36,480 nt of DNA from Bacteroidia bacterium (GTDB lineage: Bacteria > Bacteroidota > Bacteroidia > Chitinophagales > UBA2359): assembly GCA_030427245.1 (NCBI GenBank), contig JAUHXA010000068.1, positions 1 through 36,480 on the forward strand, given 5' to 3'. This document shows, piece by piece, positions 6,564 through 31,390 of the stretch. The position numbers were made by a program, and so were the translations under genes. Each line of letters begins with the position of its first letter. Positions within the stretch are counted from its first letter, which is position 1. The notes beneath the pieces are model-generated. The model was not told the origin of the DNA. It made no database searches and worked only from the letters and a program-made list of their open reading frames with translations.

Positions 6564-6645
6564 TTATTTGAATTTTATATGTCTAATTGTTTTGTTTTCA
6601 ATGAAAAAAGGCTCGTTCAATGCTCTCAAAAGCTTGATTAACTCA

Positions 6646-6857
6646 CTACTCCACCATCACTGCATCCACTTCCTTCTCCCTCACCAAATCATTAAAAGTA
6701 GGAATATCCTTCTCCACAATCGCATACCAAGCCACCAATTGTTCGTCAATTTTAGCCGTCACCTCCTTGAAGAAAGCAAGTGTTTGGTCGGTCTTTACGG
6801 CTGCGGTTTTTGGTTTGGTAGAGTTCCTTTTCGATGAGGGCCAGGAACGAATCAATT
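6646..6857 (-). pseudogene. Remnant of the 3' end of the VPS10/BNR protein gene (copy farthest from the parent)
   Basis: The minus strand encodes TLAFFKEVTAKIDEQLVAW...EKDIP.FNDLVREKEVDAVMVE, nearly the same as the last 45-50 residues of the intact gene ending at 10031. Upstream of this, the similarity continues (6793-6857 matches 10264-10328) but about 75-90 bp present in the parent are missing and the frame is shifted, giving the unrelated-looking STKPKTAA. No start or upstream part of the gene remains. It lies immediately downstream of the first glycosyltransferase copy, the same relative place that the parental tail holds to the second copy. Certainly non-functional as a BNR protein. Confidence 0.85.
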
Positions 6858-6881: not shown

Positions 6882-8339
6882 TTATTTTACCTTACTTAAA
6901 TAAATATCATTTCTCCAACGTTTTATGTATTCATAATTTGATTTTCGATTTGGTTTATGCGCTGTTATTACAAAATCACAGCATGATTTTATAATTTCTA
7001 ATTCGGCATTATCAATATTTCTCCTTGAATAAGTAATAGGGATGTCTATGTCTTTTTCTTCAAAAATGAACAACAAGTTAGTTTCTATTAAAGGATGATT
7101 GATATAGATACTTTTTGCTTTTTGGCTTACCAAATAGTCTGCAACTTCTACGGTTTTAAATGAAAATCCTTGTTTTCGATTCCATTTTTTATTGAAATTG
7201 AATATGAGAATAAGTATAACAATAACACTAAAAAAGCCGATACTCTTTATGTTTAGTTTTCTATCAAGCTGAAAACTCTCTATTGTTAGTCCTATTAGAT
7301 AAAGGAAAGGAATAATTAAGTAAATCCATGTTCGGGGAAAAGGAATAATGCCATGTAAAAGAAGAATAAATGGCACAATTAAGAAAAAACACAAAGGAAG
7401 TATTACAATTTTAGTTTTTCTGGTAGCAAAACACATAAAAAATAACGCAAATACAAAAACTGATAACGGAACAGAAAATAGAAAAGTTGAAGCTAAATTA
7501 AAGTGTTCTAATAATCTACCAAAAACTTGAACCCTCGAAATAGGTTCTACAAATCTATTATTTATCACCGCATCTATTCCTGAAACAATAAAAATTGGTG
7601 TGTACAAAATTAACACAGCAATAGATGTTAGTAAACAAGAAATTACCAAATAGGATAAGCCCTTTCTATTTTTCTTAATTAGGAAGATTGCAGAAATCAA
7701 TATAACACAAGTAAAATATGGGTAAAGAAAAGAAGGCATCGTAAAGAAGCCTATTATAGCTCCAAGAGATAATGACACGAAATATTTTGTATGATTTTGG
7801 GGTTTAAAGTTCGGGGTAGAACTCAACCTAATTGTGGAATAAAAGCAGATAATAAAAGCAAATAATACTAAAATATACCCTCTTGAAAGATGTGAGTAGT
7901 GTAGAACAGGAAACGAAAAACAAAAAACAGCTAATAGAAATAGCGCAGTTTTTTTCTGGAGTAGTTTCGTAAATGATAAATAAAAGGTTACTGCGGCAAA
8001 AGTGGAAAATAATAAATTAGGTAACCTCAAGTTGATGGTCTGTGAAAATGGAAATCCCAACGATATATTGGTCAACAGAGAATGTAGAATATGATTGTTG
8101 GGGGCAGGGTAATGTGAAAGAGAGGTAAAGAATCCTTTTTTTGTGAAATTCAGATAAGTCCAAGCCTCATCGTAGGATATTGACATAGTAGTAACGTGAT
8201 ATAAATTCACCCCAAAACTGAATAATATTATCCCTGTTGCCATCAGTGTATGATTGGTTGACACACTTGACTCTACAAGTGAAATCATCCAAGATTTTAA
8301 GCGATAAATTGCCGAAACTAACTTTAAACCTTTCTTCAT
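6882..8339 (-). CDS. GT-C fold membrane glycosyltransferase-like protein (family 39-like), copy 1
   Basis: This 485-aa integral membrane protein has roughly ten hydrophobic segments. It has GT-C/PMT-like features: an N-terminal membrane segment (about 33-52), then an external loop with the acidic motif ISYDEAWTYLNF (about 58-69), PNNHILHSLL, and the positively charged short loop NLRLPNLLF. Such proteins transfer sugars from polyprenyl-phosphate donors at the outer face of the inner membrane; the acceptor is unknown. It closes with a soluble tail of about 90 residues (VADYLVSQKAKSIYINHP...). It is a clear paralog of the 8505-9980 gene, about four-fifths identical overall, and the middle third is almost identical at DNA level. 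It was produced by tandem duplication together with a BNR-gene tail. Both copies are intact, so both may be expressed; substrate divergence is possible. Confidence 0.75.
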   Translation of the reverse strand: MKKGLKLVSAIYRLKSWMISLVESSVSTNHTLMATGIILFSFGVNLYHVTTMSISYDEAWTYLNFTKKGFFTSLSHYPAPNNHILHSLLTNISLGFPFSQTINLRLPNLLFSTFAAVTFYLSFTKLLQKKTALFLLAVFCFSFPVLHYSHLSRGYILVLFAFIICFYSTIRLSSTPNFKPQNHTKYFVSLSLGAIIGFFTMPSFLYPYFTCVILISAIFLIKKNRKGLSYLVISCLLTSIAVLILYTPIFIVSGIDAVINNRFVEPISRVQVFGRLLEHFNLASTFLFSVPLSVFVFALFFMCFATRKTKIVILPLCFFLIVPFILLLHGIIPFPRTWIYLIIPFLYLIGLTIESFQLDRKLNIKSIGFFSVIVILILIFNFNKKWNRKQGFSFKTVEVADYLVSQKAKSIYINHPLIETNLLFIFEEKDIDIPITYSRRNIDNAELEIIKSCCDFVITAHKPNRKSNYEYIKRWRNDIYLSKVK

Positions 8340-8504: not shown

Positions 8505-9980
8505 TTATTTCACCCTACTCAAATGAGTACGCCTATCCCAACGTTTTATATGTTTAAAACTTGATTTTTGATTTGGTTTATACGCTGTTATTACAAAATC
8601 ACAACATGATTTTATCCTTTCTAATTTGGAATTGTCTATCTTTTTTCTTTCGTAAGTAGAATAGGTAGAAAACTTAATAGGTATGTTTATGTTTTTTTCT
8701 TCAAAAATGAATAACAAATTAATCCTTATCAAAGGATGCTTGATGTATATACCTTTTGCTTCTTGGTTTACCAAATAGTCTGCAATTTTTACTGCTTTAA
8801 ATGAAAACGCCTCTTCTATATTCACTTTTTTATTAAAATTGAACAGGAGAATAAGTATGACAATAACACTAAAAGCACCAATACTCTTTAGGCTCAATTT
8901 TCTATGAATCTGAAAACGCTCTATTGTTAATCCAATTAGATAAAGGAAAGGAATAATTAAGTACACCCATGTTCGTGGAAAAGGAAGAACGCTATGTAAA
9001 AGAAGAATAAACGGTACTATTAAGAAAAAGCACAAAGGGATTATTACAAGTTTAGTTTTTCTAGCAGCAAAACACATAAATAATAACACGAATACAAAAA
9101 CTGATAATGGAACAGAAAATAGAAAATTCGAGGTTGAATTAAAATGCACTAATAATCTTTCCAAAACTTGACTCCTTGAAATAGGCTCTACGAATCTATT
9201 ATTTATCACCGCATCTATTCCTGAAACAATAAAAATGGGTGTGTACAGGATTAACACAGCAATAGATGTTAGCAAACAAGAAATTACCAAATAGGATAAG
9301 CCCTTTCTATTTTTCTTAATTAGGAAGATTGCAGAAATCAATACAACACAAGTAAAATATGGGTAAAGAAAAGAAGGCATCGTAAAGAAGCCTATTATAG
9401 CTCCAAGAGATAATGACACGAAATATTTTGTATGATTTTGGGGTTTAAAGATCGGGGTATAACTCAACCTAATTGTGGAATAAAAGCAGATAATAAAAGC
9501 AAAAAGCACTAACATATATCCTCTTGAAAGATACGAATAGTATTGAACAGGAAATAAAAAACAAAAAATAGCTAAAAGAAATAATGCTGTTTTTTGCCTG
9601 AATAATTTTGTAAATGATAGATAAAATATAACTGCGGCAAAAATGGAAAATAATAAATTTGGTAATCTCAAGTTGACTCTCTCTGAAAATGGGAATCCCA
9701 ATGTCATATTGGTCAAAAGAGAATGTAAAATATGATTATTAGGAGCAGGATAATATGAAATAGAAGTAAAGAATCCTTCTTTGGTGAATCGCATATAAGT
9801 CAAAGCCTCATCGTGAGATATTGGTATGGTAGTGACATGATATAAACTCACCCCAAAACTAAATAATATTATCGCAATTGCAATAATTCTATAATTGGTT
9901 GACACACATGATTCTACAAGTGAAATCATCCAAGATTTTAAGCGATAAATTGCTGAAACTGACTTTAAACCTTTCTTCAT
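8505..9980 (-). CDS. GT-C fold membrane glycosyltransferase-like protein (family 39-like), copy 2
   Basis: This 491-aa paralog of the neighbouring 6882-8339 gene has the same start (MKKGLK.VSAIYRLKSWMISLVES), the same arrangement of about ten membrane segments and the same acidic loop motif, here ISHDEALTYMRF (about 58-69). It also has PNNHILHSLL, NLRLPNLLF and the C-terminal soluble tail, which is 6 residues longer (insertion around FSTYSTYERKKID). It probably uses a lipid-linked sugar donor at the periplasmic side; the acceptor cannot be told from sequence. It lies 50 bp downstream of the VPS10/BNR gene on the same strand and may be cotranscribed with it. About 320 bp in the middle (9182-9500) are roughly 97% identical to copy 1, while both ends have diverged much more, a pattern of gene conversion. 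Confidence 0.75.
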   Translation of the reverse strand: MKKGLKSVSAIYRLKSWMISLVESCVSTNYRIIAIAIILFSFGVSLYHVTTIPISHDEALTYMRFTKEGFFTSISYYPAPNNHILHSLLTNMTLGFPFSERVNLRLPNLLFSIFAAVIFYLSFTKLFRQKTALFLLAIFCFLFPVQYYSYLSRGYMLVLFAFIICFYSTIRLSYTPIFKPQNHTKYFVSLSLGAIIGFFTMPSFLYPYFTCVVLISAIFLIKKNRKGLSYLVISCLLTSIAVLILYTPIFIVSGIDAVINNRFVEPISRSQVLERLLVHFNSTSNFLFSVPLSVFVFVLLFMCFAARKTKLVIIPLCFFLIVPFILLLHSVLPFPRTWVYLIIPFLYLIGLTIERFQIHRKLSLKSIGAFSVIVILILLFNFNKKVNIEEAFSFKAVKIADYLVNQEAKGIYIKHPLIRINLLFIFEEKNINIPIKFSTYSTYERKKIDNSKLERIKSCCDFVITAYKPNQKSSFKHIKRWDRRTHLSRVK

Positions 9981-10030: not shown

Positions 10031-13000
10031 CTAATCCCCAATCATCACCGCATCCACCTCCTTCTCCCTCACCAAATCATTAAAAGCAGGAATATCCTTC
10101 TCCACAATCGCATACCAAACCGCCAATTGTTCATCAATCTTAGCCGTTACCTCCTTGAAGAAAGCAAGGGTTTGGTCAGTTGGTTGGTAGTCACCCATAC
10201 TGGTCAATGAAAGCAAATGCGCCAATTTGTTGTTCAATTTAATGGGGAAATTGAGCGGGTCTTGGTTGCTGCGGTTTTTGGTTTGGTAGAGTTCTTTTTC
10301 GATGAGGGTCATGACCGAGTCAATGCGGCTTGCTTCCTCCACAACAGCTTTGAAGTCCTCGTTTTCGTCCTTTTTATCTTTCAAATTCCCCTTCACAAAA
10401 TTCAATTGTTTGCGGGTTTTGCGGATGTTTTTAATGGCCGTGTGTGTTTCTGTCACTTTGTCTTGTGCGGTTCGGATAAAGTCAAATTGCGCCTTCAATT
10501 CCTCCGCAGAGGCTTCCATACGTGGGTCGGCTAAGACTTCAAAAGTGGTCATCAAGACTTCCTCACCAACCGTCAATTTTGCCCAATATTTGCCAGGCAG
10601 TGCTTGTGGTCCGCCCAAATTGCCCCACCACAAAACCATTCCATCAAAAGATTCCGCATCGGGATAGTCCATATTCCACACAAAGCGGTTCATGCCCTCC
10701 TTCAAGTCCTTCAATTTCCCTTCCTTTTTCTCCTTGTTGGGTTTGGTCGAATATTTCTTTATCAAAGTACTGTCGGCGTTCATTTCCATGAATTCCAAGC
10801 TCACTGTTGTTTTTGAAGTATCGGGTACTTCCTTCAAATAAAAATGCACCATCACCCCATTCGGATGATTTTGCCCTGCCGTTTTGGGCATTTTTTCGGT
10901 AGCACCGCCATCCATTCGATAAGTCGGCATGGGCTGATAAAGATGGGTTTTGCTTCGAGCAATGTCGCTGTTCAATTGGTGAAGCGGTGTCAAATCGTCA
11001 ATCATCCAAAAACTGCGCCCTTGTGTCGCTGCAATGAGGTTGTCGTTTTTGATGGCGAGGTCGGTAATCGGCACGATGGGCAAATTCATTTGGAAGGGCT
11101 GCCACTGCAATCCATCATTGAAGGAAATATACATGCCCGTTTCTGTTCCTGCATACAAAAGTCCTTGGCGTTTTGGGTCGGCTCTCAATACTCTGGTGAA
11201 ATGTTGGCTGTCGATTCCATTGGTGATTTTTTGCCACGTTTTGCCGTAGTCTTTGGAGTGATAGAGATAGGGTTGGTAATCGCCCAATTTGTAGCGAGTT
11301 CCTGCCAGATAAACGCCTCCTTTATTGAAGGGGTCAATTTCTACCGAGTTGAACATCATCCATTCGGACATTCCTCTTGGAGTCACGTTTGACCAATTTT
11401 TACCTGCGTCTTTGCTGACATGCACCAAACCATCGTCCGAAGCTGCCCACAATAAATCTTTTTCGTAGGGCGATTCTGCGGCTGCAAAAATGGTGCAATA
11501 GTATTCGACCGAAGTATTGTCTTGGGTAATTGGCCCGCCTGACGAAACGAGTTTGGTAGAGTCGTTTCGGGTCAAATCGGGGCTGATGATTTGCCAAGAT
11601 TGTCCTTCGTCTTCACTGACATGCAGGTGATTGGAGGCGGCATAGAGGCGTTTGGGATTGTGGGGCGAGAAGAATATCGGGAAATTCCATTGGAATCGGT
11701 ATTTCATTCCTTCGGCTCCGTGTCCCATCGGATTATCGGGCCAAACGTTGATGGCTCTTGCTTGATTGGTGTCGTGATTCACACGGGTCAAAAATCCATC
11801 ATAGCTTCCTCCATATACGATATCGTTGTTGCTTGGGTCAATGGCGATGTGGGCGCTCTCGCCTCCTGCCGTACTTTCCCAATCGTCTTCGTCAATTGTC
11901 CATCCTCCGCTGCGGTGACTGATGCGGACAGTGGAATTGTCTTGTTGTGCGCCATAGATTCGATAGGGAAAATGATTGTCGGTTGTGACTCTGTAAAATT
12001 GAGCAGTCGGTTGATTGTGATAAGTTGACCAATCTTTACCGCCATCATCGGTGATTTGTGCGCCGCCATCATCGCCCATAATCATTCGGTCGGGATTTTC
12101 GGGTGCAATCCACAAATCATGGTGGTCGCCATGTGGCGCAGAACGAGCTTCAAAGGTTTTGCCGCCATCCGTTGACGTTTGATAACGGACGTTCAAGACA
12201 TATACTTTGTCGGCATCTTTGGTGTCGGCATATACTCGTGTGTAGTACCACGCTCTTTGCCGCAAAGCTCTGTCGCTGTTTATTTTATTCCAAGTTTCGC
12301 CGCCATCTTCCGAACGAAACAATCCACCATCTTTGGCTTCCATCATTGCCCAAACTCGGTCGGGCTTTGCAGGGGAAACGGCTACTCCAATGATTCCTAA
12401 GGGTGCTTTGGGCATTCCTTTTTTCTCCGAAAGATTTGTCCAAGTTTCACCACCATCTGTTGATTTCCAAAGAGCCGAACCTTCACCTCCACTTGATAGG
12501 CTGTAAGGCGTGCGCTGTATTCTCCAAGTTGAAGCGTATAAAATACGAGGATTGGTTGGGTCAAAGGTCAAATCGACTGCTCCTGCAAGGTCATTGGAGT
12601 AAAGGACTTTTGACCAAGTTTTGCCGCCATCTTTGCTGCGGTAAACGCCCCTTTCGGTGGTGGGTTTGAAGAGGTCGCCCATGACTGCGGCATAGACCAA
12701 ATCTGGATTTTTGGGATGGATTCGAATGCGGGAAATGTGGCGAGAATTTTTCAAGCCCTTATGCTCCCATGTTTTACCAGCATCCACCGACTTCCAAACA
12801 CCATAGCCATAACTCACATTCCCACGAACGGTTTTTTCGCCTCCGCCGACATAAATTACATTGTTGTCCCATTCGCTCACTGCAACTGCACCTATCGAAC
12901 CGCCAAAAAATCCATCTGAGATGTTTTCCCACGTTTTGCCGCTGTTGGTCGTCCGCCAAACGCCTCCACCTGTACTTCCAAAATAGTACAAGTCGGGTTG

Positions 13001-13228
13001 ATTTGGAACACCTGTCACCGCACAAGAACGACCGCCTCTAAATGGCCCTATGTTGCGCCATTGAAGGGCATCGTAGAGTTTTTCGGGAAAAGTTTGTGAT
13101 GAGTTATTGGTGACTCGTGACTTGTTCCGTTTATTGCTTTGGGCTTCAATGGGTTGGTATTGAAGGAAAAGAAAAAGCATTGAAGTGAGTAGCAAAAATG
13201 TTGTTATGGATGGTAATTGTTTGTTCAT
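10031..13228 (-). CDS. Secreted VPS10/sortilin-type BNR-repeat protein (annotated as glycosyl hydrolase in relatives)
   Basis: I start this 1065-aa protein at ATG 13228 because MNKQLPSITTFLLLTSMLFLFLQ...IEAQS is a clean signal peptide; the frame is open 45 codons further but without secretion features. The mature part starts with LYDALQWRNIGPFRGGRS, typical of a large Bacteroidota family. It has many Asp-box/BNR motifs of the form S-x-D-G-G-K-T-W (WRTTNSGKTWENIS, WKSVDAGKTWEH, YRSKDGGKTWSKV, WKSTDGGETWTNL, FRSEDGGETWNKI and others), indicating one or two beta-propellers over about residues 50-720. The C-terminal part (about 720-1065) has a beta-sandwich-like stretch and a helical tail (AQFDFIRTAQDKVTETHTAIKNI). 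The true activity of the family is unproven. Its 3' end has been copied twice downstream with the glycosyltransferase genes. Confidence 0.85.
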   Translation of the reverse strand: MNKQLPSITTFLLLTSMLFLFLQYQPIEAQSNKRNKSRVTNNSSQTFPEKLYDALQWRNIGPFRGGRSCAVTGVPNQPDLYYFGSTGGGVWRTTNSGKTWENISDGFFGGSIGAVAVSEWDNNVIYVGGGEKTVRGNVSYGYGVWKSVDAGKTWEHKGLKNSRHISRIRIHPKNPDLVYAAVMGDLFKPTTERGVYRSKDGGKTWSKVLYSNDLAGAVDLTFDPTNPRILYASTWRIQRTPYSLSSGGEGSALWKSTDGGETWTNLSEKKGMPKAPLGIIGVAVSPAKPDRVWAMMEAKDGGLFRSEDGGETWNKINSDRALRQRAWYYTRVYADTKDADKVYVLNVRYQTSTDGGKTFEARSAPHGDHHDLWIAPENPDRMIMGDDGGAQITDDGGKDWSTYHNQPTAQFYRVTTDNHFPYRIYGAQQDNSTVRISHRSGGWTIDEDDWESTAGGESAHIAIDPSNNDIVYGGSYDGFLTRVNHDTNQARAINVWPDNPMGHGAEGMKYRFQWNFPIFFSPHNPKRLYAASNHLHVSEDEGQSWQIISPDLTRNDSTKLVSSGGPITQDNTSVEYYCTIFAAAESPYEKDLLWAASDDGLVHVSKDAGKNWSNVTPRGMSEWMMFNSVEIDPFNKGGVYLAGTRYKLGDYQPYLYHSKDYGKTWQKITNGIDSQHFTRVLRADPKRQGLLYAGTETGMYISFNDGLQWQPFQMNLPIVPITDLAIKNDNLIAATQGRSFWMIDDLTPLHQLNSDIARSKTHLYQPMPTYRMDGGATEKMPKTAGQNHPNGVMVHFYLKEVPDTSKTTVSLEFMEMNADSTLIKKYSTKPNKEKKEGKLKDLKEGMNRFVWNMDYPDAESFDGMVLWWGNLGGPQALPGKYWAKLTVGEEVLMTTFEVLADPRMEASAEELKAQFDFIRTAQDKVTETHTAIKNIRKTRKQLNFVKGNLKDKKDENEDFKAVVEEASRIDSVMTLIEKELYQTKNRSNQDPLNFPIKLNNKLAHLLSLTSMGDYQPTDQTLAFFKEVTAKIDEQLAVWYAIVEKDIPAFNDLVREKEVDAVMIGD

Positions 13229-13402: not shown

Positions 13403-14203
13403 ATGAAAACCTTCATTACACAACTTACTATTTTTGGTTTGATGTTGTTTTTGTTATCACCAGAAGTAAATTCCCAAATCCTTGATAGCGGAGACAGAAA
13501 TACCAATCAAATTAACAATGCCAATAACCTAAGCCGAAAGCTAAGCAAGGTTGAGCCGATTCAACACAATGCAGATGAGAGTAATACTTGGAAGGAAAAC
13601 AATCACCTGTCTGTTCATTCAAAAGAGTGGCTAAAATTGGGGCATAACTTTGATAAAACGATAAAATGGAAAGGTAAACACGACACCAATACCTCTTTTT
13701 TGTGGGCAGAAAAAGGACACGAAGAAAGAGATAGTAAAAGAGCTGCGGACAATGGACACAAAGAAAAAACATCCATTTTTTGGTTGGAAAACAATCACGA
13801 TTATGAAGCTACCAAAAAATGGTACAGTGATGCGGATTTTGACCACAGTTTTGCTACTACCTTGAAATGGCGTGGAGAAGATCATGATTATGATGAAACT
13901 AAAAAGTGGGTGCAAGGAGAAACGGGAGAAGATGGTACTGTTATTCCTGAACATAGCTTCGCTTTAACAAAAAAATGGATCAAAGAGAATGACCATACCT
14001 ATGAAACAACCTACAAATGGAAGAGGGATGAGCACGGAACTCGAAAGTCTAAAGAATGGGAAAGTAAAGAAGACGGACACAGTTACGACTTATCCATCAA
14101 GTGGACCAAAGATGACCACAATAACATCAAATCCTATAAATGGAAGGAAAGAAATCACGACTATGATAAAAGTAAGGTGAGAGCAGATGAAAAGGACAAT
14201 TGA
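13403..14203 (+). CDS. Secreted protein of short H-x-Y-[DE]-x-[ST]-x-K-W repeats, function unknown
   Basis: This 266-aa protein has a signal peptide (MKTFITQLTIFGLMLFLLSPEVNSQ). Apart from a short Asn-rich linker, the whole mature part (about 60-262) consists of some 13 tandem units of 12-20 residues. Each contains His, an aromatic, an acidic residue, Ser/Thr, then K-W or a variant: HNFDKTIKW, HDYEATKKW, HSFATTLKW, HDYDETKKW, HSFALTKKW, HTYETTYKW, HSYDLSIKW, HDYDKSK. It is extremely hydrophilic, rich in K, D, E, H and W, and lacks Cys. I do not recognise a family. The regular His/aromatic/Trp spacing suggests a repetitive beta structure or a ligand- or metal-binding surface protein; that is inference. 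It is divergently placed to the BNR gene with 174 bp between the starts, and is followed by a good intrinsic terminator, so it is monocistronic. Confidence 0.8.
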   Translation: MKTFITQLTIFGLMLFLLSPEVNSQILDSGDRNTNQINNANNLSRKLSKVEPIQHNADESNTWKENNHLSVHSKEWLKLGHNFDKTIKWKGKHDTNTSFLWAEKGHEERDSKRAADNGHKEKTSIFWLENNHDYEATKKWYSDADFDHSFATTLKWRGEDHDYDETKKWVQGETGEDGTVIPEHSFALTKKWIKENDHTYETTYKWKRDEHGTRKSKEWESKEDGHSYDLSIKWTKDDHNNIKSYKWKERNHDYDKSKVRADEKDN

Positions 14204-14237: not shown

Positions 14238-14281
14238 ACATCTGTTGGGTTTTCAGTAACCTAACAGATGTTCTTTTTTTC
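14238..14281 (+). terminator. Intrinsic terminator after the repeat protein gene
   Basis: A stem ACATCTGTTGGGTT (14238-14251) pairs with AACCTAACAGATGT (14258-14271), 13 of 14 positions plus one G-T, with a 6-nt loop. It is followed by TCTTTTTTTC. Confidence 0.88.
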
Positions 14282-14303: not shown

Positions 14304-15383
14304 ATGAAGACCAAAAATATCCTTAAATTTCTCACTTTTACCCTATCATCTTGTTTCATCCTTTCTTTTTTTACTTCAATAAAAGCCCAAACCCAAACTT
14401 CGATTCCCACCCCAAAAGTCACCTTCAATCAGCAATACATTGAAGGACTGCAATCCCATTTTCCAGTAGATTCGACCAAAGCCGTTTTTGACTTGGTTTT
14501 TAACGCTTTGCCCGATGAAGTCTATGTTTATCCGACCGAAAACTACTACTACTTTCAGTTTCAAGCAAACGGGTATTGGATTTGGGGAAATATTCGATTG
14601 GGGGTTTTGACGAGAGACAAAGGAATCTTGCATTTTGCTTACTACACCTACTATGGCAATCCACAAACGCCCGATGATGGACAGAGTTTTGTGGAACATT
14701 TTGACGAAAGCAAAGGTGTAGTGGTGAAGCGATTGCAGGAACTTCGCTATTCGGTGACTTACAAGGGCAAAACGGTTGTCTTTCAATTCAATAAACTCAA
14801 CCAAACTCCTCCTGATGCTTCGCTATTGGGTGAACAAGAAGTCTTTGTTCAGCGAACTTTTGACGAATCTGGTTTTGGTTTTTTATTGATTTTCAACAAA
14901 GTACAGAAGCATTTTATGTACGTATTGGACGAAAGGGAAAACGTGCCACTTGATTTGGAAATGGTGGTTTTGGATACGCTGAGGTATAAAAATTTGCTGA
15001 TAAATCCTGCCAGTAGCTTTATTTTTTACCAAGACAGCAGCCATCAAAACCGCAAAATTTTGGCAGGAGTTTGGGCGCAAAACATTCGCTGCAACAATTA
15101 TTGGGACGGCCCTTTCGACCAGTTGGCGGACAATTTTCGGAGTTCGTTATTGAAGGAATGTATTGAAGCGGCTTATCCCTATGTGAGAGGAGGAGTGGAC
15201 GAATATGGCTTTTTTCCGATTTTGGAAGGAAGTCGCATGGCCATCAGTTGCTATTATGAGTATGAAGATTTGGGGGAATTTATTCAGAACTTTGAAATGT
15301 GTTTGAAGCAGCCTGCAAACGAGTTTTTCGCTTGTTTGGCCTATGATTACAAAATACATTTTTCTGCGAGTGAGAAGGAATGA
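14304..15383 (+). CDS. Secreted protein of unknown function
   Basis: This 359-aa protein starts at MKTKNILKFLTFTLSS (ATG 14304), which gives a standard signal peptide ending near SIKAQTQTS. An in-frame ATG 12 codons upstream lies inside the terminator of the preceding gene and is unlikely. The mature protein is rich in aromatic residues and alternating beta-strand patterns (DEVYVYPTENYYYFQFQANGYW, NIRLGVLTRDKGILHFAYYTYY), with a pair of spaced Cys near the C-terminus (C-N-N-Y-W and later SCYYEYED, FEMC, FFACLAYDY). I do not recognise a domain. No neighbour gives a functional clue; the downstream SDR gene has its own promoter box. Confidence 0.7.
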   Translation: MKTKNILKFLTFTLSSCFILSFFTSIKAQTQTSIPTPKVTFNQQYIEGLQSHFPVDSTKAVFDLVFNALPDEVYVYPTENYYYFQFQANGYWIWGNIRLGVLTRDKGILHFAYYTYYGNPQTPDDGQSFVEHFDESKGVVVKRLQELRYSVTYKGKTVVFQFNKLNQTPPDASLLGEQEVFVQRTFDESGFGFLLIFNKVQKHFMYVLDERENVPLDLEMVVLDTLRYKNLLINPASSFIFYQDSSHQNRKILAGVWAQNIRCNNYWDGPFDQLADNFRSSLLKECIEAAYPYVRGGVDEYGFFPILEGSRMAISCYYEYEDLGEFIQNFEMCLKQPANEFFACLAYDYKIHFSASEKE

Positions 15384-30066: not shown

Positions 30067-30153
30067 CAAAAAACATTAATTTGAATTAATTTTTCTACAC
30101 TATTTTATTGGCTTTTATTTAAACCCTATTTACTAACAACAACATTGATTATT

Positions 30154-30657
30154 ATGTCAACATCCTATGTTAAGGATCAACTTCCAACTGTAGAAAAATA
30201 CCTATTAAACTTCGCATATTACATGACGAAGAACAATGCCGAAGCCCAAGATTTATATCAAGATACTGTCCTTAAAGTATTAACCAAAGGTCATCTTTTT
30301 AAGAAAGGGACCAACTTCAAAGCATGGTGCGCAACCATTATGAGAAATCTATTCATCAATGGCTATCGCCGTAAAAAGAGGGCAAATGTAGTCTTGGATC
30401 ATTCTAACAACAACTATTATATCAATTCTGGTAAAACAGTCTCCAATGATGGAGAATGGAAAGTGTCGTATAAAGAATTGGTTCATTTGGTAAATAACTT
30501 ACCAAAAACGCTTTCTGTACCTTTCGCTATGCGATTTAGAGGGTACAAATACGATGAAATAGCTAAAGAATTGGATTTGCCTATGGGAACTGTCAAGAGC
30601 CGTATCTTTTTGGCAAGACGACAGCTCAAAAAAGAATTCAATAAAAGAATGGTATAA
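30154..30657 (+). CDS. ECF-type RNA polymerase sigma factor, copy 1
   Basis: This 167-aa protein starts at ATG 30154 (MSTSYVKDQLPTVEKYL), which aligns exactly with the start of its paralog downstream; an upstream TTG would add only three residues. Region sigma-2 is NFAYYMTKNNAEAQDLYQDTVLKVL...NFKAWCATIMRNLFINGYRRKKR (about 18-75). Region sigma-4 is LPKTLSVPFAMRFRGYKYDEIAKELDLPMGTVKSRIFLARRQLKKEF (about 115-162) with its HTH. There is no sigma-1 or sigma-3, as in all ECF factors. No anti-sigma or transmembrane sensor gene is adjacent. It is preceded by a pair of 65-bp direct repeats and followed 229 bp later by a close paralog. Confidence 0.93.
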   Translation: MSTSYVKDQLPTVEKYLLNFAYYMTKNNAEAQDLYQDTVLKVLTKGHLFKKGTNFKAWCATIMRNLFINGYRRKKRANVVLDHSNNNYYINSGKTVSNDGEWKVSYKELVHLVNNLPKTLSVPFAMRFRGYKYDEIAKELDLPMGTVKSRIFLARRQLKKEFNKRMV

Positions 30658-30886: not shown

Positions 30887-31390
30887 ATGTCTAAAACGCA
30901 TGTTCAGCAGCAACTTCCTTTTGTAGAAAAGTACTTAAAAAACTTCGCACTATACATGACGAAAAATAGAACGGAAGCCGAAGACTTGTACCAAGAAACA
31001 GTACTCAAAGTATTGACAAAAGGACATCTTTTTAAGGAAAACACCAATTTTAAAGCATGGTGCGCAACCATCATGAGAAATCTGTTTATCAATGGCTATC
31101 GCCGCAAAAAACAGGCAAACGTAGTGTTAGATTACTCTAATAATAACCATTATATAGATAGTGGACAAACTGTAGATAATACTGGAGAAGGAACCATATC
31201 CTACAAAGAATTGGTTCACCTGATTAATAAACTTTCCAAAGCCCTATCCGTTCCTTTCCTCATGCGATTCAGAGGTTACAAATACGAGGAAATCGCAGAA
31301 GCATTGGATTTACCAATGGGTACGGTCAAAAGTCGTATCTTCTTAGCCAGAAGACAATTGAAAAAAGAGTATCGCAAACGGATGATGTAG
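30887..31390 (+). CDS. ECF-type RNA polymerase sigma factor, copy 2
   Basis: This 167-aa protein (MSKTHVQQQLPFVEKYL) has the same length as the upstream copy and is alignable without gaps, with roughly three quarters of residues identical. Identity is strongest in the -10 binding region (NFKAWCATIMRNLFINGYRRKK) and in the -35 binding HTH (LDLPMGTVKSRIFLARRQLKKE), so both may recognise similar promoters. The differences cluster in the linker between sigma-2 and sigma-4 (YSNNNHYIDSGQTVDNTGEGTIS) and at the N-terminus. Again no anti-sigma gene is present. A strong terminator follows 20 bp after the stop; the 229 bp before it have no hairpin, so readthrough from copy 1 is possible. Confidence 0.93.
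   Translation: MSKTHVQQQLPFVEKYLKNFALYMTKNRTEAEDLYQETVLKVLTKGHLFKENTNFKAWCATIMRNLFINGYRRKKQANVVLDYSNNNHYIDSGQTVDNTGEGTISYKELVHLINKLSKALSVPFLMRFRGYKYEEIAEALDLPMGTVKSRIFLARRQLKKEYRKRMM

Follow-up and report, generated by a model that had tools for sequence, protein, structure and literature searches.

An exported protein of His-Ser/Thr-Trp repeat units in a Bacteroidia bacterium, possibly a single long antiparallel beta-sheet

Introduction

What kind of protein consists almost entirely of short units in which histidine, a hydroxyl residue and tryptophan recur at fixed spacing, and what could such a protein do? The question is raised by an open reading frame (ORF) in contig JAUHXA010000068.1 of assembly GCA_030427245.1, from a member of the Chitinophagales lineage UBA2359. 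The window is this whole stretch of 36,480 bp (positions 1 to 36,480, forward strand). An earlier note, made from the letters alone, placed a secreted repeat protein at 13403-14203, and these coordinates are correct. Here, we describe the repeat, its predicted structure and a search for its relatives. We conclude from the sequence that the repeat is real, old and held at the protein level, and we favour its being an exported, soluble protein that forms one long antiparallel beta-meander and binds a partner through a face of histidines and aromatic residues (probability roughly 0.42).

The repeat gene and its parts are as follows.

13403..14203, forward strand: ORF of the repeat protein, 266 amino acids, with no cysteine
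13403..13474, forward strand: putative signal peptide, a hydrophobic N-terminus recognized by eye, cleavage site inferred; with no cysteine there is no lipobox
13475..13564, forward strand: Asn-rich segment leading the mature protein, modelled by AlphaFold2 with low confidence
13565..14182, forward strand: fifteen units H-x-[YF]-[DE]-x-[ST]-x-K-W with linkers of 3-14 residues
13718-13744, forward strand: unit 5, which lacks the Trp
14156-14182, forward strand: unit 15, which lacks the Trp
13796..14104, forward strand: units 7-13, the best-ordered part of the models, with a predicted strand on each and a predicted local distance difference test score (pLDDT) of ~50-80 per ten-residue block

Results

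The repeat unit

The nine-residue cores of the 15 units start at residues 55, 68, 81, 93, 106, 119, 132, 148, 161, 184, 198, 211, 226, 239 and 252. Position 1 is His and position 6 is Ser or Thr in every unit (15/15), and position 9 is Trp in 13/15. The firm consensus is therefore H, S/T and W; the other residues of the pattern are kept in about half of the units, with Tyr or Phe at position 3 in 8/15, Asp or Glu at position 4 in 7/15 and Lys at position 8 in 8/15. Repeats had been predicted correctly, but their number had been put at about 13, which is the number that keep the Trp, and of the consensus then proposed, H-x-Y-[DE]-x-[ST]-x-K-W, only the H, S/T and W hold throughout nearly all units. 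The pattern far exceeds what composition gives: H-x7-W occurs 13 times, against a maximum of 5 in 20,000 composition shuffles, and H-x4-[ST]-x2-W also 13 times, against a maximum of 3. All 15 cores are exactly nine residues long and the 14 linkers range from 3 to 14 residues, so that length variation is confined to the linkers. Mean inner identity between units peaks at a lag of 2, and a two-unit super-repeat is present in the middle of the protein, where units 7 and 9, and units 8 and 10, each have 5/7 inner residues in common.

From residue 25 on, the protein is ~28.9 kDa, with an isoelectric point of 6.4 and a grand average of hydropathy (GRAVY) of -1.63. The signal-peptide-like N-terminus, judged by eye, bears out the view that it is secreted. 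The Pfam scan did not find the type IX sorting domain PF18962 (Por_Secre_tail) in it. As there is also no cysteine, the protein is not a lipoprotein, and going by the Pfam scan it is not a type IX substrate either.

A pattern kept in the protein but not in the DNA

Tandem Repeats Finder returned no rows at score 30, and a repeat search of the DNA found two short repeat families and nothing more. As a tandem DNA array is absent, recent tandem slippage is excluded and the pattern is kept at the protein level. Mean identity between cores is 0.545, 0.556 and 0.399 at codon positions 1, 2 and 3 (0.297, 0.372 and 0.266 expected from composition), as expected for a maintained protein, and the Ser/Thr at position 6 is encoded by eight different codons. 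The protein pattern has, on these comparisons, outlived the DNA repetition. This agrees with the earlier note, which had argued for long-term selection on the pattern over recent slippage.

Predicted structure

One strand per unit is predicted by two AlphaFold2 models, made without an alignment, which place a beta-strand on 12/15 units (whole ORF) and 13/15 units (repeat part); the strands listed overlap one unit each. At low confidence, the models have strands in the repeat part, with a short helix at unit 5. The distribution of residues within the cores is binary in a way that agrees with this prediction. Inner aromatic residues stand at odd rather than even positions, hence on one face, by 11 to 1, and hydrophobic and aromatic residues together by 17 to 6, a bias reached by 0.1% of 20,000 within-unit permutations, while charged and hydroxyl residues are mostly at even positions. 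A strand in each unit, joined to the next by a short turn, points to an antiparallel meander and not to a parallel solenoid. The stacked beta structure that had been suggested is thus retained as far as beta goes, since both runs gave it, but not as a parallel solenoid.

We favour the meander because the unit statistics, the restriction of length change to linkers, the odd-position aromatics and the two agreeing AlphaFold2 runs all lead to it. The nine-residue units would form its strands, one apiece, and the variable linkers its turns. Given a turn of the usual four residues, Trp9 would come to lie opposite His1 of the next strand, and Trp and His would alternate on both sheet edges. Tyr/Phe3 would share the face of Trp and His, with Asp/Glu4, Ser/Thr6 and Lys8 on the other. 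The protein would then most likely act by applying this His/aromatic face to a protein or polymer partner, whether in the cell envelope or beyond the cell, much as BLIP-like inhibitors use their concave sheet. Strand pairing, binding face and partner are all inferred, and at this confidence the models are no reliable guide to whether the sheet is open, curved or closed.

Several observations weigh against this reading. Confidence is low in both models, with a mean pLDDT of 49.1 and a predicted template modelling score (pTM) of 0.43 for the whole ORF and 55.7 and 0.51, respectively, for the repeat part. Units 1 and 5 form a strand in neither model and unit 2 in only one. Lys occurs alongside hydrophobic residues at core positions 5 and 7, which blurs the aromatic face. 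Foldseek returned no match at E <=0.001 in the PDB for the whole-ORF model, nor in BFVD for the repeat-part model. The VIA fold lists contain ApoB, TOC and Bam barrels, porins, OspA and teneurin/Rhs sheets at Z ~6-9, the range that the tool calls typical of models lacking a clear match. The VIA listings indicate an extended antiparallel sheet in the models, and nothing further; families missing from them were not taken as excluded. Porins fill much of these lists, but an outer-membrane barrel was ruled out by the hydrophilicity of the protein (GRAVY -1.63).

Two other functions are conceivable; the earlier note had raised polysaccharide and metal binding. The protein could bind polysaccharide or matrix, or be structural, its rows of aromatic residues stacking against sugars or its molecules assembling into a fibre. 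Aromatics on one face, the signal peptide seen by eye and the strong hydrophilicity would all suit this, as would a host genome in which type IX sorting domains are matched at least 150 times, which marks it as rich in surface proteins. So many of these domains also fit an origin in Bacteroidota. However, the protein itself lacks such a domain and matches no carbohydrate-binding family in Pfam, and we regard this alternative as unlikely. Binding of metal or haem at the cell surface, with His and ladders of Trp and Tyr on the sheet edges holding the ligand, would make use of the invariant His1 (15/15) and of a His content of 7.5% of the repeat part. Against it, there is no cysteine, the strand pairing we infer has His alternating with Trp at each edge, and the six neighbouring proteins that were scanned do not point to metal uptake. 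It is somewhat less likely than polysaccharide binding or a structural role.

Search for relatives

The repeat protein matched no Pfam family up to E 10, including carbohydrate-binding families and PF11396, and nothing in NCBIfam up to E 1. PDB sequences were matched neither by the whole protein nor by a profile of a unit pair. The opinion that the consensus belongs to no known repeat family therefore stands for these three collections. The whole protein found no paralogue in its own genome (self match only). A query of 60 genomes including its own returned four others at E 0.055 to 0.94, none of them repeat proteins. In the genome contig set, the whole protein gave 32 pattern stretches, with none confirmed. 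It was unmatched in plasmids, phages and viral contigs, and a single PHROGs row at E 0.14 was taken as chance. A literature search on combined repeat/Trp/His terms and on combined YD terms found no matching paper.

The two-unit profile was then searched against 20 family, 396 order, 395 phylum and 395 class genomes and 64 genomes of another order; these sets overlap, and the genome of origin is in all but the last. No other protein with such repeats was among the matches listed, and none of the four non-self rows in the order set (E 0.0105 to 0.0435) is a repeat protein. In a leave-one-out trial of the profile, 5/7 held-out unit pairs exceeded 20 bits, one reached 14.8 and one 7.6, with shuffles at 8.0 or less. 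Thus, relatives with typical units should have shown in the genomes searched, and very degenerate ones should not.

The weak rows of the 60-genome search and of the family and order profile searches were all read in six frames and set aside, as H-x4-[ST]-x2-W occurs at most once per frame; two H-x7-W share a frame in L026 alone, where they lie in 19 residues. An exact DNA pattern, covering one Lys-Trp and the two following units, was found in 25 stretches of genome contigs and 3 of viral contigs. None of these 28 loci holds a relative, though diverged relatives can be missed because the pattern is exact. Two were flagged by a script and rejected. L057 is a frame of 781 residues in which H-x7-W occurs three times but the unit does not, and L038 is a low-complexity H/T/P/W repeat of different period. 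The latter tandem repeat (6645-6730, in a contig of a metagenome-assembled genome titled Prosthecobacter) resembles a eukaryotic minisatellite and is perhaps contamination. The protein may therefore be a new kind of repeat protein with no relative in the genomes searched.

A possible link to PepSY_like proteins

The two-unit profile did return five non-self hits at E <=0.01, one in the phylum set (G575) and four in the class set (G1099, G861, G830 and G1052), and all five are the same kind of exported protein. The three that were scanned match PepSY_like (PF11396; E 7e-8, 6.2e-13 and 1.6e-12), and the other two align with them. A sixth hit, from the other-order set (G1124), is the same by eye, and its genus is shared with one of the five. 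The stretch in common is one hairpin (KWIKENDHTYETTYKW vs KWDKENAHEYEASFTW). This suggests that the repeat could be a remote PepSY_like descendant that arose by amplification of one beta-hairpin of a PF11396, BLIP-like periplasmic protein, and we consider such an origin doubtful.

The evidence for kinship with the PepSY_like hairpin is suggestive, from sequence comparison. Hhalign of the two-unit profile with an alignment of the five proteins gave a probability of 84 (E 7.5e-6 for that one comparison), and of the whole repeat protein with the same alignment a probability of 33. In pairwise comparisons, each of the five, and one further protein not chosen by the profile, beat 300/300 shuffles of itself, and the score for the same proteins was reached by 0/1000 and 2/1000 shuffles. 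However, the members of the alignment had been selected for hitting the profile. Eleven PepSY_like proteins chosen without it gave 1.9 bits, reached by 40/1000 composition and 37/1000 inner shuffles of the window protein, and six other unselected ones were matched by 2, 5, 7, 9, 16 and 171 of 300 shuffles. PepSY_like frames (31 of the 170 ranked) outrank the others (p 0.006), yet do so also for shuffled bodies (1/3 composition, 3/3 inner), and a reversed-body control of this ranking gave p 0.075. The best E value, 4.9e-4, is per genome and is not significant across ~400 genomes, and hmmscan of the repeat protein did not match PF11396.

In the genome of origin there are 13 PF11396 matches, and the His-Trp hairpin is absent from the four loci read. 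Two PepSY_like proteins, on contigs C179 and C109, have four similar tandem domains, and the linkers that join these are acidic or rich in Gly and His. Multiplication of PepSY_like domains thus does occur in this genome. PMC10434189 lists PepSY-like genes as iron-regulated; we draw nothing from this.

Neighbouring genes

Three features adjoin the repeat gene.

14238-14271, forward strand: terminator-like hairpin, 14 pairs and a T tract, 34 bases after the gene
14304..15383, forward strand: next gene, 359 amino acids, start chosen by eye after the hairpin, exported by eye
10031..13228, reverse strand: divergent neighbour, a Sortilin-Vps10/BNR protein matched in 18/20 family genomes at E <=1e-100

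The hairpin suggests that the repeat gene may stand alone as a single-gene transcript, although by count (1 found vs 0.9 expected in shuffles) such hairpins are not above chance. The product of 14304..15383 has no Pfam or NCBIfam match and was matched in only 1/20 family genomes, its own. Upstream of the BNR gene in three relatives there is no such repeat gene, with at most one H-x7-W per frame in the first 1700 bases, of which 211 read N in one relative (L063). A fourth locus was not counted, as only 314 bases of its contig remain past the match. The G+C content of the repeat gene (0.375) is close to that of the window (0.382), and recent import is not apparent.

Occurrence in a single genome among the sets searched, beside a neighbour that is similarly confined, would fit a young orphan ORF of little or no function. 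The retention of H, S/T and W in diverged units after the DNA repetition was lost argues against this, as does the signal peptide recognized by eye, and we consider it very unlikely.

Elsewhere in the window, two adjacent reverse-strand ORFs (6882-8339 and 8505-9980; 485 and 491 amino acids) have near-identical N-termini, are membrane proteins by eye and are clearly duplicates. Two adjacent forward-strand genes (30145-30657 and 30887-31390) encode closely similar proteins that look like sigma factors by eye.

Discussion

Few natural proteins are known to form open single-layer sheets that lack a hydrophobic core. This protein may, though it probably does not, represent a class of repeat protein not described before. 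In that case up to 15 strands, each formed by a single 13-residue unit, would make a single-layer sheet lined on both edges by Trp-His pairs; it would have evolved in one lineage, perhaps from a BLIP-like hairpin amplified without the helices. If the protein is indeed a natural sheet in which each strand is a short unit of its own, it would provide a clean series in which to ask what holds such sheets together, and would also serve as a scaffold. An origin in one BLIP-like hairpin, if confirmed, would show how a closed domain can become an open repeat protein.

Comparison with known systems

Like the repeat protein as modelled, YD/Rhs proteins and teneurins have extended sheets of repeated short strands, and they are among the VIA matches listed, with a root mean square deviation (rmsd) of 2.6 to 4.8 over 88 to 126 residues. 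However, the repeat protein did not match Pfam (E 10) or NCBIfam (E 1) models, and the YD consensus differs from that of the unit.

The single-layer sheet of OspA is likewise extended and antiparallel. It gave at best Z 8.0 (rmsd 3.5 over 114 residues) in one VIA list and 7.5 in the other, and stands among unrelated rows of like Z. The repeat protein differs in having no PDB sequence match. The OspA sheet, moreover, connects two globular regions (PMC12183334).

PepSY_like/DUF2874 (PF11396) proteins and BLIP also have an exported antiparallel beta-sheet, and the hairpin of a PF11396 subgroup resembles one unit pair. According to PMC2954215, both consist of four antiparallel strands and a helix-loop-helix, tandemly repeated, with the sheet as the concave face, and its authors argue for inhibitory roles. 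The concave face of BLIP carries Phe36, His41, Trp112, His148, Trp150, Trp162 and several Tyr, the same kinds of residue that recur in the units (PMC2954215). The repeat protein differs in having 15 strand units, no such helix pair in the models and no hmmscan match. The presence of OspA single-layer sheets in the VIA lists and the residues on the concave face of BLIP nevertheless both lead towards the partner-binding meander. By analogy, a longer sheet with His, Tyr/Phe and Trp recurring along one face would be suited to surface binding of the BLIP type.
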